From Armatimonadota bacterium (GTDB lineage: Bacteria > Armatimonadota > Hebobacteria > CAIYQO01): a stretch of 35,629 nt of DNA. Location of the stretch: the NCBI GenBank assembly GCA_020060775.1, contig JAGUZN010000339.1, positions 1 through 35,629 on the forward strand, read 5' to 3'. Of the stretch, positions 9,310 to 18,656 are shown piece by piece. Every line of letters begins with the position of its first letter. Position 1 is the first letter of the stretch. Position numbers and translations under genes: made by a program. A model generated the notes under the pieces. The model ran no database searches, was not told the origin of the DNA, and worked only from the letters and a program-made list of their open reading frames with translations.

Positions 9310-10137
9310 TTATCGGCTCGCGGGCGTTCTCCGGCGTCGCCAGACCATCATGAGACCGAGCACCAGCAGCAGCAGGCCGAACAGACTGCGCAGAATGAGT
9401 ACGTCAAGCCTTACCGCCAGGAAGGAGCCGGCGAATGCCCCGGCCACCCCACCCACGGCTAACCAGAGGACATCCCGCGGGCGGATATTGCCCTGCCGGT
9501 AGTGAACGAATGCTCCGGAAATGGCAGTCGGGATAATCACCGCCAACGAGATGCCTTGCGCCAGCGTCTGCGTGAACCCGAGAAGGAAGACCATGGCCGG
9601 CACCATGATGATGCCACCACCGACCCCAAGCAGTCCGCTGAGAATACCGGTGGCTAATCCAATGCCCAGCACCAGCACAACGGACCAGACCCCGCCGGCA
9701 ACGATGCCGTGCCCGGCAAGTTCGTCCGAACGGTCCAGCAGCACGACGCCGACGACATCATAGAGCATGCGCGCGGCGACGAGGATGAGGAAGCCACCGA
9801 AGTAGCGCCGAAGCGTTGCCGCCGGTAGTCTATTCGCTAATTGAGCGCCAAGCACAGCTCCTACGACTGCGCCAGTCGAGAGTTCGAGCACGATCAGCCA
9901 ATCCATTTGCCCGGTAGTGATGTAGGCATAGAGTCCGGCCAGGGCCACGAAGAGGATGACGGCCAGAGAGGTGCCATGGGCGCGATGCTGTGAAAACTGC
10001 AACAGAAACACCATCGCCGGCACCAGCAACACGCCGCCGCCGACGCCGAGGAGTCCGCTCAATACTCCAGCGATCAGTCCAATGCCAATCCCTAATACGA
10101 CCTCATGCATCGATGCCCCACTGCGCTTGATTAGCAT
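9310..10137 (-). CDS. TauE/SafE (TSUP) family sulfite exporter-like permease
   Basis: ORF is 9310..10422; homology-like sequence begins near MLIKRSGASMHEVVLGIGIGLIAGVLSGLLGVGGGVLLVPAMVFLL; two internal repeats ending GxLSGLLGVGGGxxxVPAMVFLL. Start chosen at 10137 (10110 also possible). Confidence 0.85.
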   Translation of the reverse strand: MLIKRSGASMHEVVLGIGIGLIAGVLSGLLGVGGGVLLVPAMVFLLQFSQHRAHGTSLAVILFVALAGLYAYITTGQMDWLIVLELSTGAVVGAVLGAQLANRLPAATLRRYFGGFLILVAARMLYDVVGVVLLDRSDELAGHGIVAGGVWSVVLVLGIGLATGILSGLLGVGGGIIMVPAMVFLLGFTQTLAQGISLAVIIPTAISGAFVHYRQGNIRPRDVLWLAVGGVAGAFAGSFLAVRLDVLILRSLFGLLLLVLGLMMVWRRRRTPASR

Positions 10138-11451: not shown

Positions 11452-14400
11452 CTAGACGGTTTCCTTCACGCGACGGGTGCCTGACAGGGTCAGGTGCCAC
11501 CGGACACGACCCCTGGCGTGTTCCCAGGCGAGATAGACCGCCGGGAGGACGCACAGGGTGAACAGGGTCGAGGTGATTAGGCCGCCCACCAGGACGATGG
11601 CGAGGGGCTTTTCGATCTCCGCGCCGACGCCACTACTTAGCAGGATGGGCGCCACACCGAGGGCGGCACAGGCGGCAGTCATTAGCTTGGGACGCAACCG
11701 TTGTACGCTTGCCAGCCGGATCGCCTCCTCCTTGCTGTGCCCCTCCGCGACGAAGTCGTTGGTCTGCGTCAGCAGCACCAGGCTGTTTTGCACCGCAATC
11801 CCGAAGAGGGCAATGAAGCCCACCGCCGAGGAGACGTTGAGCGTTTCCCCGGTGAGCAGTAACGACGCCACCCCGCCGACGAAGGCGCTGGGCACCGTAG
11901 CCAGGATGAGGAGCGCCTGCGATGCGGACTTCAGCGCCAGGAAGAGCAGCATGAAGACGATGACCAGGGCAATCACCGTCGCCAGCGCCAGCGATTTCAT
12001 GGCGCGTTGCTGGTTCTGGAACTGCCCGCCGAACACCACGTAGTAGTCCCTCGGCAGCTTCACCTCCTTCATGCCGGCCTTGATGTCGGCCACCACGCTG
12101 CCGAGGTCACGCCCCTGGATGCTGGCATTGATGCTCAACCGGCGGTTCATCGCCTCGCGCCAGATGACGTTCGGGCCTTCCGCCAGGCGGATGTCGGCCA
12201 TCTGGGACAGCGGCACCGCCGCCCCGGACGGCGTGTCGACTAGCAAGTTCTTCAGCGCCTCGATGTCGCCCCGCGCGTCGTCGGCCAGGCGCACGAAGAC
12301 GCCGTAGCTGCGCTGGCCCTGCCAGACCTGGGTCAGTTCTTCCCCGCCCACGGCGAAGTGGAGCATCTCGGAAATCTCCCCCACCGAGACGCCATAGCGC
12401 GCCGCGGCCTGCCGGTCGATCTGGATCTGCACCTGCGGGATGCCCGCCACCTGATCCATGTTGACGTCGGCGACGCCGGGGGTGCGCTCCATGATCTCGC
12501 GAATTTGCGCGCCCTTCTCGGCCAGCGTCTGGATGTCCGGCCCGAAGAGCTTTATCTGCAAGGGCGCCGGGGTACCTTCCATGCTTTCGTTGATCTTATT
12601 CTGCAGCGGCTGGGTGAAGGCGACCGCCACCCCTGGAATGTGCTCGATCTCCTCGCGCACCTCGGCCAGGATCTCCTCGCTCGGTTTCGACAGCTGGTGT
12701 TTCGGCTTCAGGTTGACGAACATCTCCCCTGAATTGACCGGCAACACGCAGCCGATGGCGCGTTCGGACCGCCCGTTGCGGCGCACCACCTCGACGATAT
12801 CCGGGTGGTCGAGCAGCAGCTGTTCGATCTGCCGGGTGATGCGGTCATTCTCTTCCAGCGACGTTTCCGCCGGGGTCGCCGTTGACACGAACCAGGTGCC
12901 CTCATCGAGTTTCGGCATGAAGTCGCGGCCCACCGCCAATAACCCCAGCGCGGAGGGGATGAGCAGTACCACGGCGATGCTGATCACCACCCAGCGGTGC
13001 CGCAGCGCCCATTCCAGCGCTGGCACATAGCCGCGCTTGATCCAGGCGACGAACTTGACTTCACCGTCCGCATTGTCGAGCGGTTTCGGATGCAGGAAGC
13101 GCATCCCGAGCACCGGCGTGAGGGTGAGCGAGAGTAGCAGCGCCACCAGCATGGCCGCTCCCACGGTGACGGCCAACGGGCGGAAGAGCAGGCCTTCGAT
13201 ACCGCCCATCAGGAAGAGCGGCAGAAAGACCGCGATGATGATTAGCGTCGCGAAGGCGATGGGGCGACCGACTTCGATGGCCGCTTTATGCGCCACCGTG
13301 CGTTTCACCCCCGGATCATCGAGGTTTGTTCTGCTGCGATGGAAACGATGGTAGAGGTTCTCCACCATGATGATGGAGGCGTCCACCATAATGCCAACCG
13401 CGATGGCCAATCCGCCCAGCGACATGGTGTTCAAGCCAACGCCGAGTTGGCGCATCAGCACCCCGGCGATGATGACCGACAGCGGCAGCGAGACCGCCAC
13501 GATGAGCGTGCTGCGGAAGTGGCCGAGGAAGACCAGCAGCACCAGGATGACCAGCACGGCGCCGATGAGGATGGCTTGCGTGACGCTGGAGAGCGCGTGA
13601 TTGATCAGGTGCGTCTGGTCATAGTATGGGGTGATGCGCACCCCGGCCGGCAGTGTTTCGCGCAACTCGGCGAGGGTGCGTTCGATGCCCTTCACCACCT
13701 GCACCGTGTCGGCATTCGGCTGCTTGATGACGAGCGCCACCACCGTTTCCTTGCCATCTTTGCTGGCGATGCCCCGCCGGATGGCCGTGCTCTCCTTGAT
13801 GGTGGCGACATCGCGCAGGTAGACCGGCACGCCATTACGGGCGGTCACCACCGTCATCTCGATGTCCTCGACCGATTGGTAGCGCCCCAGGCCACGCACG
13901 GTATATTCCGTCACCCCCGTGCTGATGAAGCCGCCGGACGCGTTCTCATTGCCACTTTCGACGGCATCCTCCACCTCGGCCAGCGAGACACGATACGCGC
14001 GTAGGGCGCGCTGGTCGAGGGTGACCCGGTACTGCCGCAGGCTGCCGCCCATGTTGAGGACTTCGGCCACGCCGGGCACGTTGAGCAGGCTGTAGCGGAT
14101 CTGCCATTCGGCCAGTTCGCGCAGCTCAGTGGGTGGGAGATCACCCTCCACGGCGAACTCATACACCTCGGCCAGGCGTGTGGTGGCGCTGGAGAGGGTC
14201 GGCGGTTCGGTGCCCGGTGGCAACTGCCCGGTCACCTGGGACATGCGCTCGGTGACAAACTGGCGCGCGCGCCAGAACTCCGACTCGATGCCAAACTCGA
14301 CCACCACAGAGGACAACCCCTGCGTCGTCTGCGAGCGCACGCGCTGCACGCCGGGCAGGCCGTTCATCGCCGCCTCCATCGGGCGGGTGATCGTCGTCTC

Positions 14401-14613
14401 GATCTCTTCTGCGGCCATCGATTCGTTCTCGGTGACGATGGTGAAGACCGGAATGGTAATGTCGGGATAGACGTTGCGCGGCAACTGCTGGTAGGCGAGC
14501 ACGCCAAACACCAGCGCGAGCCCCACGAGCATCACGACAATGGCCTGGTGACTGAACGCGGCATGGATGATCTTCTCAATCAGACTGCCGTGTGGATGGT
14601 GTTGCTGATCCAT
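11452..14613 (-). CDS. Heavy-metal efflux RND transporter, CusA/CzcA family
   Basis: 1053 aa; PDITIPVFTIVTENESMAAEEIETTITRPMEAAMNGLPGVQRVRS; TM4 AIAVGIMVDASIIMVEN; RND architecture; adjacent adaptor and OMF genes. Confidence 0.93.
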   Translation of the reverse strand: MDQQHHPHGSLIEKIIHAAFSHQAIVVMLVGLALVFGVLAYQQLPRNVYPDITIPVFTIVTENESMAAEEIETTITRPMEAAMNGLPGVQRVRSQTTQGLSSVVVEFGIESEFWRARQFVTERMSQVTGQLPPGTEPPTLSSATTRLAEVYEFAVEGDLPPTELRELAEWQIRYSLLNVPGVAEVLNMGGSLRQYRVTLDQRALRAYRVSLAEVEDAVESGNENASGGFISTGVTEYTVRGLGRYQSVEDIEMTVVTARNGVPVYLRDVATIKESTAIRRGIASKDGKETVVALVIKQPNADTVQVVKGIERTLAELRETLPAGVRITPYYDQTHLINHALSSVTQAILIGAVLVILVLLVFLGHFRSTLIVAVSLPLSVIIAGVLMRQLGVGLNTMSLGGLAIAVGIMVDASIIMVENLYHRFHRSRTNLDDPGVKRTVAHKAAIEVGRPIAFATLIIIAVFLPLFLMGGIEGLLFRPLAVTVGAAMLVALLLSLTLTPVLGMRFLHPKPLDNADGEVKFVAWIKRGYVPALEWALRHRWVVISIAVVLLIPSALGLLAVGRDFMPKLDEGTWFVSTATPAETSLEENDRITRQIEQLLLDHPDIVEVVRRNGRSERAIGCVLPVNSGEMFVNLKPKHQLSKPSEEILAEVREEIEHIPGVAVAFTQPLQNKINESMEGTPAPLQIKLFGPDIQTLAEKGAQIREIMERTPGVADVNMDQVAGIPQVQIQIDRQAAARYGVSVGEISEMLHFAVGGEELTQVWQGQRSYGVFVRLADDARGDIEALKNLLVDTPSGAAVPLSQMADIRLAEGPNVIWREAMNRRLSINASIQGRDLGSVVADIKAGMKEVKLPRDYYVVFGGQFQNQQRAMKSLALATVIALVIVFMLLFLALKSASQALLILATVPSAFVGGVASLLLTGETLNVSSAVGFIALFGIAVQNSLVLLTQTNDFVAEGHSKEEAIRLASVQRLRPKLMTAACAALGVAPILLSSGVGAEIEKPLAIVLVGGLITSTLFTLCVLPAVYLAWEHARGRVRWHLTLSGTRRVKETV

Positions 14614-14622
14614 GCCCCCTCC

Positions 14623-16419
14623 TTAATGATCGGTACACCCGGCTTCGAGTTGCCCGGAGCCGAGTGCCGTCTTCAACTGGTAGTTGCCGGTGGTCACGAC
14701 ATCGAGACCGGGCTCCAGTCCGCGAAGAATCTCGACCTGGTCGCCGTGGGTTGCTCCCAGGATGACTTCCAGCTTATCGAAGGAGCCGCAGCTTTTCCCG
14801 GTCGCCTGATCGTCCTCGCAGTCCATGCAGGGGCTGAAGACGATTTTTTTGCCGGCCTCGTCCAGCACGGCCGCCTTCGGAATCAGGAGCGCCTGCGTGC
14901 CTTTGCCGGTCGCGATGTTGACGGTGGCGAACATGCCGGCTTTCAGCGCGCCGCCGGGGTTGGCCACATCACAGCGGATGCGCGCGGTGCGAGTTTCGGC
15001 ATTAAGCGCCGTCCCAACCTGGCGAACCGTGCCGCGGAAGGGCTGGCCGGGGAAGGCGGTGACGGTGATCTCAGCCGCCTGTCCCAGGCGTACCTGCGCC
15101 AGGTCCTTTTCGTAGACATTCGCCCACACCCACACCTTCTCGGTATTCACAATGGTGAAGAGATCGGTGGACGCTTCGACGGCCTGGCCCGGTGTGGCCT
15201 GACGCTCGGTGATAACCCCGCTGATCGGCGCAGTAATGGGGATGCTGACGGCATTGCCGGAAGCGCCGGCAGCACGCAGGGCACGCAGCGCGTTCTCGGC
15301 CGCCTGCACATCAGCCCGTGCGCGCGCCAGGTCGGCTTCCGCCTCCTGGATCTCCTGCCTGGCGAGGAGCGCCTTCCCGGCGACCTGTTTCTCGCGGGAC
15401 AGCACGGATTGGGCGACAGCCAGTTGACCTTTGGCGCGCTGCAGGGCCACCTCACAGGTATCGACTTCACGCTCGGCCTGGTGCAGCGCGGATTCGGCAG
15501 CTTTCGTCTCGGCCGACGTATATAACCCCTGCCCGGCGATGCCTTCTTCACGGCTCTGGGCCTGTTTCGTCAACTCCACCTGCGTGCGTGCGGCGCCCTC
15601 TTTGGCTTTCGCGTCAGCCAGCTCCGCTTCGGTGGCTTCCACTTCTCGTCGTGCCGCGATGCCGGCGTCGAAGAGTCGCTTGCTGCGATCATACGCGGCT
15701 TGCTTCACCTTCACTGCCGCCTGCGCCGATTCCAGTTCCGCCTGTGCGGTCGCCACCGCGCCCTTCGCGGCCTCGACCTGCGGGGCATGAAAGGCATTGG
15801 CCTTTGCCAGCTTGTGCTTGCGTTCCAGTTCGTCCGCCGCCAGTTCCCGTGCGTTGCGCGCACGGGCCAGCGCGGACTCTGCTTGCTTGACCTCGGCTTG
15901 CGCCGCACTGTAGGCCGCTTCCGCATCCTCGAGCGGGCGTTGCGTAAGCGCACCGGTGGCCGCCAGTTCCTTCACATTGGCCAGCCGGGCACGCGCCGCC
16001 TGTTCCTCGGCACGGGCACGGGTTAACGCGGATTGCATATCAGCGACATCGCGGCTGGCGACGGTCGCCAGGGTTTGCCCCGCGCGCACGCGCAGGCCAA
16101 CTGTCCCGGAGAGCTGGGTGAGTCGGCCGGAGACGGGAGAGCCCACCTTTGCGGTCTGATCCTCGTTCGCCTGTATGTCCCCGCTGACGGTCAATACGGC
16201 AGTGACAGGCGCCATGACCACCGGCGCGGTCTCCAGGCCGGCAATGGCTACGCCTTCATGACCGTGTGTGTCCTCACTGGCTTCATGCCCATGCCCCTCG
16301 TGATCCGTCTCTTGCGCAGCAGTGGCGGTTTTCTGCATGGTGACACGGACAATCGCAAAGACGCTCCCCGTGACGATGAGTCCAAGCACGGCAAGTAAGA
16401 GAAGACTCCGGGTATTCAT
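14623..16419 (-). CDS. RND periplasmic adaptor (CusB/CzcB-like membrane fusion protein) with unusually long alpha-helical hairpin region
   Basis: 598 aa; VSPVSGRLTQLSGTVGLRVRAGQTLATV biotinyl-lipoyl-like half motif, ITAPISGVITERQATPGQAVEASTDLFTIV second half; beta-barrel AEITVTAFPGQPFRGTVRQV; long Ala/Glu-rich coiled region between. Confidence 0.9.
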   Translation of the reverse strand: MNTRSLLLLAVLGLIVTGSVFAIVRVTMQKTATAAQETDHEGHGHEASEDTHGHEGVAIAGLETAPVVMAPVTAVLTVSGDIQANEDQTAKVGSPVSGRLTQLSGTVGLRVRAGQTLATVASRDVADMQSALTRARAEEQAARARLANVKELAATGALTQRPLEDAEAAYSAAQAEVKQAESALARARNARELAADELERKHKLAKANAFHAPQVEAAKGAVATAQAELESAQAAVKVKQAAYDRSKRLFDAGIAARREVEATEAELADAKAKEGAARTQVELTKQAQSREEGIAGQGLYTSAETKAAESALHQAEREVDTCEVALQRAKGQLAVAQSVLSREKQVAGKALLARQEIQEAEADLARARADVQAAENALRALRAAGASGNAVSIPITAPISGVITERQATPGQAVEASTDLFTIVNTEKVWVWANVYEKDLAQVRLGQAAEITVTAFPGQPFRGTVRQVGTALNAETRTARIRCDVANPGGALKAGMFATVNIATGKGTQALLIPKAAVLDEAGKKIVFSPCMDCEDDQATGKSCGSFDKLEVILGATHGDQVEILRGLEPGLDVVTTGNYQLKTALGSGQLEAGCTDH

Positions 16420-16844
16420 CGTGTGGCTCCCTTCGCGGCGGGTGTCGATGGATGTGGTGCGTCGGTACCGCAGGTGTCGCCTGCTTTGTGGTGATGACCG
16501 TCATCTGCATGAGCATTCGTATCAGGAATGCTAGTCTCACAGGCATCACCAGCCTTGTGGCTATGGGCATTTTCGGTGCCACGCGTGCCGGTGTCGCACG
16601 AGTCTCCAGCCCGGTGGGTGTGATCGCTCGCCTTGCCAGCGTTCGTGCCAAGTGTTTTGGGGTCCGCATCATTGCATGGATCACCTGGAGCACCGTGTTT
16701 GTGCCCTTCAACAGCAGGGCGAGACTGGGTTGGCGGATGTGCGGGCGGACGCGTCGTGGTTTTGGCCAGAATCACGCCCGACACGATGCTGACCGCAATC
16801 ACGGCGATCACGGCGAATATCATGGGTTTGTTCTTAGTGCTCAT
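16416..16844 (-). CDS. Membrane-anchored periplasmic His/Cys-rich repeat protein (putative metal-binding component of the efflux operon)
   Basis: 142 aa; N-terminal TM (MIFAVIAVIAVSIVSGVILA) then HKHGAPGDPC, HTHRAGDSC, HSHKAGDAC, HHHKAGDTC; ATGA-type 4-bp overlaps with both flanking genes. Confidence 0.8.
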   Translation of the reverse strand: MSTKNKPMIFAVIAVIAVSIVSGVILAKTTTRPPAHPPTQSRPAVEGHKHGAPGDPCNDADPKTLGTNAGKASDHTHRAGDSCDTGTRGTENAHSHKAGDACETSIPDTNAHADDGHHHKAGDTCGTDAPHPSTPAAKGATR

Positions 16845-18082
16845 TGTTGCTGCTCCTTGTCAGCCGCCGGCAATGTCGTGCCGACGGCCCATTCCAATTG
16901 CGCCAGTGCCGTCTGATACTCACCGAGCGCGGTCAAATATTCGATATGGGCAGCGCGCAAGGTCCGGCGCGCTTCCAGCACTTCCAGATAGGTCATCGCC
17001 CCTTCCTGATAGCCGGTGGTGGCCATTTGCGCGAGCTTGTCTGCTGGTGCGAGCACCTGGTCGCGTAAGGTGCGAATTTGCGCTTCGGCGCTACGCGTTG
17101 CGATCAGCGCAGTGCTGATCTCCTGCCGCACCAGTAAGCGCGTGGCATCCAGTCGACGCTGCTGTGCGGTGACCACCGCCTGGGCACGGTCACGTTCAGC
17201 GCGCGCCGACCCCCAATCGACCAGTGGGAGCGAAATCCCCAGGCCGACGCCGCCATCGCCATCCCAGGATTCACGCCGCACCTGGATGGCAACGTCTGGT
17301 CGTTGTGCCGCACGTGCGGCATCGACTTCTCCAGAGGCGGCTGTAACCAGGGCCTGATCACGCCGGAGTTCGGGACGATGCGCCACTCCCTGCTGCAGCA
17401 AGACCTCATCCTGTAAGGTGACGGGGGTGTAGGTGAGGGACTCGGTCAGTGTCATCGGCGTATTGGGATCACGCCCCAGGGCGCCGTTGAGGGCGGTTTG
17501 CGCGTGCGCGACAGCCGCGTGAGAGCGTGTCAGTTGCTGCCGAGCCCGCGCCAGTTCCACCTCTGCCTTGATGACATGGGACGTCGGTTCGTTCCCGAGT
17601 TCCAGCTGTTTCTTGGCTGTTGCCAGGAGCGTTTCGGCATACGTGACATTCTCCGCATCAAACATAGCTACGGCATGCGCTTGCGCTAAATTCCAGTAGG
17701 CGGTTTTCACCGCGAGGATTAGATCGCGCTCGGTTACCTGCTGTTCGGCTTTCACGGCCTCCAGTTGGCTGGAAGCGACTTTCGTGCGCGCTCGCCGTGC
17801 ACCGCTGAGTTCGAGCGGCTGCGTAATGGACAGCAGTTCGTCAGAACCTGCCGGACCTAAGAGGCCGGGAGTCACGACGATTTCCGGATTGCGGAGCGTC
17901 CGTGCGCCACGCAGATGAGCCGATGCGGCCGTCAGGTCGGCGGATGCCGCGTGATAAGACGGATGGTGCGTTAATGCGTACTGAATCGCATCAGCGAGGC
18001 TCAACGGTTCTTGCGCCAGTGCTGGTAGCGTCAGTACCGTGAACATACCCGTAAGTGTCAGGTATCGTGTAAACGTTCGCAT
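16841..18082 (-). CDS. TolC-like outer membrane efflux protein (OMF)
   Basis: ORF 16841..18253; signal peptide at MRTFTRYLTLTGMFTVLTLPALAQEPLSLADAIQYALTHHPSYHAA supports start at 18082; two OEP-type repeats. Confidence 0.88.
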   Translation of the reverse strand: MRTFTRYLTLTGMFTVLTLPALAQEPLSLADAIQYALTHHPSYHAASADLTAASAHLRGARTLRNPEIVVTPGLLGPAGSDELLSITQPLELSGARRARTKVASSQLEAVKAEQQVTERDLILAVKTAYWNLAQAHAVAMFDAENVTYAETLLATAKKQLELGNEPTSHVIKAEVELARARQQLTRSHAAVAHAQTALNGALGRDPNTPMTLTESLTYTPVTLQDEVLLQQGVAHRPELRRDQALVTAASGEVDAARAAQRPDVAIQVRRESWDGDGGVGLGISLPLVDWGSARAERDRAQAVVTAQQRRLDATRLLVRQEISTALIATRSAEAQIRTLRDQVLAPADKLAQMATTGYQEGAMTYLEVLEARRTLRAAHIEYLTALGEYQTALAQLEWAVGTTLPAADKEQQQ

Positions 18083-18371: not shown

Positions 18372-18656
18372 TTAGCAGGATTTCGGTGGTTGGAAGATGG
18401 TAAAGGCGATGTCACGCAGGCACAGCGCATCGCTGTAAACAGTTTCATGGGCGCGTTCGGCTACATGGAGCGCTGGTGGACAGGAATGCGAGCTATCCAG
18501 GCGTACCGGTGCCTGGCAGCAGGTACACACACAGACGGCTTCGGTGTCATGGTGGTCTTCCTCATGCGCGGCATCGCAAGGCGCGGAGATCCACAAGAAC
18601 GCACCCAGGAGGAGCAAGGCCAGTATGCGAAACCATCGTCTGTCGTGTTGAGCCAT
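18372..18656 (-). CDS. Small secreted Cys/His-rich protein
   Basis: 94 aa; signal-peptide-like FRILALLLLGAFLWISAPCDA followed by HEEDHHDTEAVCVCTCCQAP; same strand upstream of the efflux operon with a good promoter. Confidence 0.65.
   Translation of the reverse strand: MAQHDRRWFRILALLLLGAFLWISAPCDAAHEEDHHDTEAVCVCTCCQAPVRLDSSHSCPPALHVAERAHETVYSDALCLRDIAFTIFQPPKSC

Follow-up and report, generated by a model that had tools for sequence, protein, structure and literature searches.

What could a small protein with four His/Cys units do for a heavy-metal RND efflux pump, when its gene sits between those of the outer-membrane factor (OMF) and the periplasmic adaptor? The question is raised by a gene, here called P0001, in a window of 35,629 nucleotides (the whole stretch of DNA that was analysed) from an Armatimonadota bacterium. 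We lean towards reading P0001 as a lineage-specific, SilE-like, membrane-tethered metal-binding accessory of the heavy-metal RND tripartite pump.

The P0001 gene and its operon

On the minus strand, the genes follow in the order 94-aa secreted protein, OMF, P0001, adaptor and permease (Table 1), the OMF start being placed by inspection at the ATG that precedes the signal peptide MRTFTRYLTL. The permease scores above the CusA/CzcA cut-off and lies with adjacent OMF and adaptor genes, which makes this a heavy-metal RND (HME) operon, the setting that had been proposed for it. The named relatives of the pump are Armatimonadota/Armatimonadetes MAGs.

Table 1. Positions of P0001, its repeat units, the other operon genes and the members of the 94-aa family (window coordinates, or locus and coordinates where an L number is given)
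Feature	Position	Strand	Evidence or remark
Heavy-metal RND permease, CusA/CzcA family	11452..14613	(-)	TIGR00914, 872.5 bits (cut-off 701.45)
Periplasmic adaptor, 598 aa	14623..16419	(-)	TIGR01730, E=1e-58
P0001, 142 aa, ATG start, no known family	16416..16844	(-)	ORF and translation
Unit 4 of P0001, HHHKAGDTC, residues 117-125	16470..16496	(-)	
Unit 3 of P0001, HSHKAGDAC, residues 94-102	16539..16565	(-)	
Unit 2 of P0001, HTHRAGDSC, residues 75-83	16596..16622	(-)	
Unit 1 of P0001, HKHGAPGDPC, residues 48-57	16674..16703	(-)	
Outer-membrane factor, TolC/OEP type	16841..18082	(-)	PF02321, E=3.9e-48
Secreted Cys/His-rich protein, 94 aa, ends IFQPPKSC	18372..18656	(-)	Homologues upstream of OMF
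94-aa family member	L082:5203-5496		
94-aa family member	L083:5084-5377		
94-aa family member	L087:1652-1924		
94-aa family member	L088:9976-10239		
94-aa family member	L089:4287-4541		
94-aa family member	L090:4726-5016		

P0001 consists of a single N-terminal hydrophobic helix followed by a low-complexity tail with four spaced H-x-H...G-D-x-C units, of which the first is one residue longer than the others; this is the architecture of the original prediction. Each unit carries one of the four Cys residues of the protein, none lies outside the units, there is no CxxC, and the tail has no Met. The OMF stop and the P0001 start share an exact ATGA (16841-16844), as do the P0001 stop and the adaptor start (16416-16419), so that both predicted 4-bp overlaps are exact. 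SD-like sequences precede the starts of P0001 (AAGGAG) and of the adaptor (AAGGGAG), and these sequences, together with the overlaps, give the appearance of the translational coupling that had been suggested.

When the tail was shuffled 200,000 times and searched with the pattern H.H.{1,4}GD.C, no shuffle held more than one motif, against the four observed, and a scan of the whole window found no H.H..GD.C-type motif in any other frame. Among the codons for the invariant H, H, A, G, D and C of the units, five of the six third positions vary and none of the 12 first and second positions does, a comparison that is partly circular, as the motif was chosen by its amino acids. Such synonymous-only change at the conserved residues favours selection on the protein rather than a recent DNA repeat. 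The GC3 of P0001 is 0.57, against 0.65-0.86 in the neighbouring genes, and its synonymous-codon score exceeds the random-codon null by only about 0.9 s.d., which gives no strong coding support. As codon usage is near neutral, the coding case is built on the overlaps, the SD sequences and the motif, and on these P0001 is a real gene-like feature. Single-sequence AlphaFold2, whose weight is small because it worked without an alignment, places a helix at residues 3-28 and leaves most of the remainder below a pLDDT of 50, a model consistent with a tethered disordered tail.

Occurrence of P0001

Searches with P0001 returned no Pfam family at E<=1, no match in NCBIfam or the PDB, no convincing match among PLSDB plasmids (tblastn and blastn), and no convincing homologue in a scan of GTDB contigs and 61 relatives. 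Weak matches at E 0.001-0.005, confined to the low-complexity tail, were taken as chance, as was a second match in the same genome that is interrupted by two internal TGA stops. The low-complexity filter of BLAST could mask true relatives; a codon-degenerate DNA pattern for HxHxAGDxC was also run over 291 Armatimonadota genomes, which included no other species of the genus of P0001. The pattern was clustered only at the P0001 locus. Outside the window it gave 38 matches, each of them single, and the 29 that were readable in context appeared either to be out of frame or to fall within unrelated ORFs. P0001 is thus known so far, across the databases and genomes searched, from one genome only.

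In two genomes of the same family, whose adaptors are about 76-79% identical to this one, the OMF and adaptor genes overlap directly and P0001 is absent; among 20 related-adaptor neighbourhoods, none has a comparable ORF at the OMF-adaptor junction. As neither the two nearest operons nor any of these 20 neighbourhoods has P0001, the pump can do without it, and the idea that it is a general pump component finds no support.

Two distant operons do carry a gene in the gap between OMF and adaptor (L085:6027-6872 (-) and L101:5314-5868 (-)). It lies on the opposite strand and is unrelated, and these loci were rejected as P0001-like insertions. The gap genes have the sequences MTRAEIIAEVEKRLGPLDE.. 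and MTKTEIFAELERRLGPLDE.., respectively, with DFDTG, and possibly encode a retropepsin-like protein.

Permease, substrate and adaptor

Among solved structures, ZneA (619 bits) is the closest to the permease, followed by CusA (534 bits), in which M573, M623 and M672 form the Cu(I) site (PMC8092243). At these positions the permease has S577, S628 and E676 in place of the Met triad, and this Ser/Ser/Glu combination is kept in the five relatives aligned. The HME1/HME2 (CzcA/CnrA-type) permeases are recognized by the TM4 signature DFGx3DGAx3VEN (PMC3637150). TM4 of the present permease is AVGIMVDASIIMVEN, a CusA-like helix without the DFG motif and hence without the HME1/2 signature. Of the zinc-site residues of ZneA, E136 is kept as E149 in the permease, while G, N and E stand at the positions of D602, D654 and D658 in the alignment. 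With the Met triad absent and ZneA the closest solved relative, a Cus-like Cu(I)/Ag(I) pump is not supported and is not to be assumed.

The adaptor has its own N-terminal helix, a His tail (DHEGHGHEASEDTHGHEG), a Cys cluster (CMDC..SCG) and the C-terminal sequence LEAGCTDH. A membrane helix, a short His-rich tail and then the adaptor fold are the layout of the adaptors of this operon and of related ones. The L009/L065 adaptor tail holds HAHEGEACTEGDGC, which includes HAHEGEAC, a single HxH..GExC-like unit. In other adaptors (L091:6364-8868 and L092:3277-5709) a long extra N-terminal region, His/Cys-bearing and with the sequence GHMHGPDGRHI..VEGCDVHSIIHKKGDP, lies ahead of the usual fold. Within the last 95 residues, the Cys cluster PC-x2-C...C-G-(S/A)-(F/Y)-D and the C-terminal AGC(A/T)D are conserved, also in L082, L083 and L087-L090; the cluster is absent from the L009/L084 adaptor. 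The permease contains the stretch ER(A/V)IGCVLPVNSGE at positions 617-631, and it is possible that this stretch and the Cys cluster and C-terminus of the adaptor form a path of thiols for metal in this subfamily of pumps.

Comparison with known metal-binding accessories

In function, the closest counterpart of P0001 is SilE, which represents an established type of protein: a disordered periplasmic sponge, encoded beside an RND pump, that binds six Ag+ per molecule through repeated His/Met motifs (PMC5008109), and its interplay with the adaptor SilB has been discussed (PMC8686694). P0001 resembles SilE and PcoE, the periplasmic silver/copper sponges of the sil and pco operons, in being small, in its repeated short metal-ligand motifs and in the position of its gene beside an RND metal pump. 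SilE and PcoE are disordered when metal-free, whereas the disorder of P0001 is a prediction (pLDDT mostly below 50 beyond residue 50). The SilE motifs are MxxHxxxxxHxxMxx and HxxMxxxHxxMxx, while P0001 has HxH..GDxC, with Cys and with a Met-free tail; SilE is periplasmic, while P0001 is likely membrane-anchored and encoded at the OMF-adaptor junction. No sequence homology to SilE/PcoE and no MxxH...HxxM motif were found in P0001, which places it outside that family.

The tails of heavy-metal RND adaptors of the CusB/CzcB class are similar to P0001 in that a membrane helix is followed by a presumably disordered His-rich segment. They have irregular His runs, whereas P0001 is a separate protein with four regular units, and the Pfam and NCBIfam searches found no HlyD/RND_mfp domain in it that would make it an RND adaptor itself.

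CusF, like P0001, is encoded in an RND metal-efflux operon and is proposed to deliver metal to the adaptor, but it is a beta-barrel, whereas P0001 is apparently disordered and has no CusF domain (PF11604), so the predicted unlikeness of the two is borne out. It had also been proposed that P0001 replaces CusF. The PF11604 search found no CusF at E<=0.01 in the genome of P0001, which is 92% complete, and none above the cut-off in six relatives that have the same pump and lack P0001. There is therefore no complementary pattern between CusF and P0001: the whole group lacks CusF, and P0001 does not compensate for this, so that the idea of a replacement is unsupported.

The conserved 94-aa protein upstream

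Homologues of the 94-aa protein lie just upstream of the OMF gene in 7/7 operons with this permease type, and a profile built from the family matched strongly, at E 1e-19 to 1e-32, in the same 7 of 101 genomes only. The family shares a signal peptide, a His/Cys cluster and, at the C-terminus, IF(Q/R/H)PP. Proteins of the CutF type sense metal as nascent chains during their export and control the gene that follows (PMC9973294). By inspection, the 94-aa protein has all three CutF-like features, namely the export signal, the Cys metal motif and the proline-rich end. No curated family matched it above the cut-off, and NCBIfam CopL_fam gave weak, below-cut-off matches to two family members. From these sequence features, the family is a candidate for CutF/CopL/CzcI-like translational metal sensors.

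In L088, the stretch that separates the small IFRPP gene from the start of the OMF gene (about 9830-10000, G045:C5) holds two inverted repeats, both of them strong: GGATTATGC..GCATAATCC and GCATTATTCACG..CGTGAATAATGC. They fit the stem-loop model of CutF-type regulation.

A model for P0001 and its alternatives

In the model that we lean towards, the helix of P0001 would act as an inner-membrane anchor, with the tail on the periplasmic side, although the helix may instead serve as a signal peptide that is cleaved off, and P0001 would then be soluble. The HxH..GDxC motif is a candidate metal site that is not among the experimentally known ones; its His and Cys may bind soft or borderline metal ions, about one per cluster. 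The tail would then catch metal locally, as an antenna or sponge next to the pump, and it may hand its ions to the His-rich N-terminal tail of the adaptor or merely buffer them. Of the original prediction, the part that stands as the best reading of the gene is a metal-binding accessory, tethered and disordered, a role deduced from its sequence and setting. P0001 would be a free-standing, regularised, four-unit version of the helix and His-rich tail module of the adaptor, and it may have originated as an extra adaptor-type anchor and tail placed between the OMF and adaptor genes. A DNA-level comparison for duplication of the adaptor 5' end gave only chance-level matches of 8-19 bp. The bolder version, that P0001 is a new, translationally coupled pump accessory, a free-standing antenna held at the inner membrane that is built from a new HxH[KR]AGDxC repeat, feeds the adaptor tail and is unrelated to CusF and SilE, is one that we hold only tentatively.

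Clearly less credible to us than the metal-binding accessory, though to be taken seriously, is the explanation that P0001 is an orphan ORF, either young or in decay, of little function: a low-complexity, repeat-prone insertion between the coupled OMF and adaptor genes, tolerated as its overlaps keep the adaptor translated. Its presence in one genome and absence from the sister operons, the lack of a homologue and a codon usage near the random-codon null all agree with this. An ORF of that kind would not be expected to keep H, H, A, G, D and C in four units whose third codon positions differ, to confine every Cys to these units, or to combine a hydrophobic helix with SD sequences and ATGA overlaps at both ends. 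It is improbable that P0001 is instead a metal-responsive regulator, a nascent exported His/Cys peptide that responds to metal in the periplasm and tunes adaptor translation in the manner of CutF or CopL. P0001 lies directly upstream of the adaptor gene and overlaps its start, and it is like the CutF/CopL/CzcI leaders in being a small exported protein with His/Cys metal motifs in a metal-resistance operon; leaders of the CutF type, moreover, have both a Cys metal motif and an export signal, and they regulate the gene downstream (PMC9973294). P0001, however, ends in AAKGATR and lacks the proline-rich C-terminus of such leaders, its 4-bp overlap with the adaptor gene gives no room for an intergenic stem-loop, and the operon already holds a better leader candidate in the 94-aa gene at 18372-18656, with its IFQPP.

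Hardly probable at all is a thiol-redox or structural partnership with the adaptor, in which the Cys residues of the units would form disulfides, or mixed disulfides with the adaptor Cys cluster, and metal would be secondary. Adaptors of this subfamily do carry C-x2-C...C-G as a conserved cluster, as well as GC(A/T)DH at the C-terminus, but these Cys residues are conserved also in relatives without P0001, and the HxH beside each Cys of P0001, in a protein without CxxC, suggests metal.

Implications

For this pump family, the broadly conserved small protein is the upstream CutF/CopL-like one, which makes it a better experimental target than P0001. If P0001 does bind metal, the sponge role that SilE has in silver resistance would have been solved independently in this lineage, with Cys/His repeats and a membrane tether in place of Met/His repeats, and P0001 would show that a pump operon whose genes are tightly coupled can take up a new accessory and keep the coupling intact.
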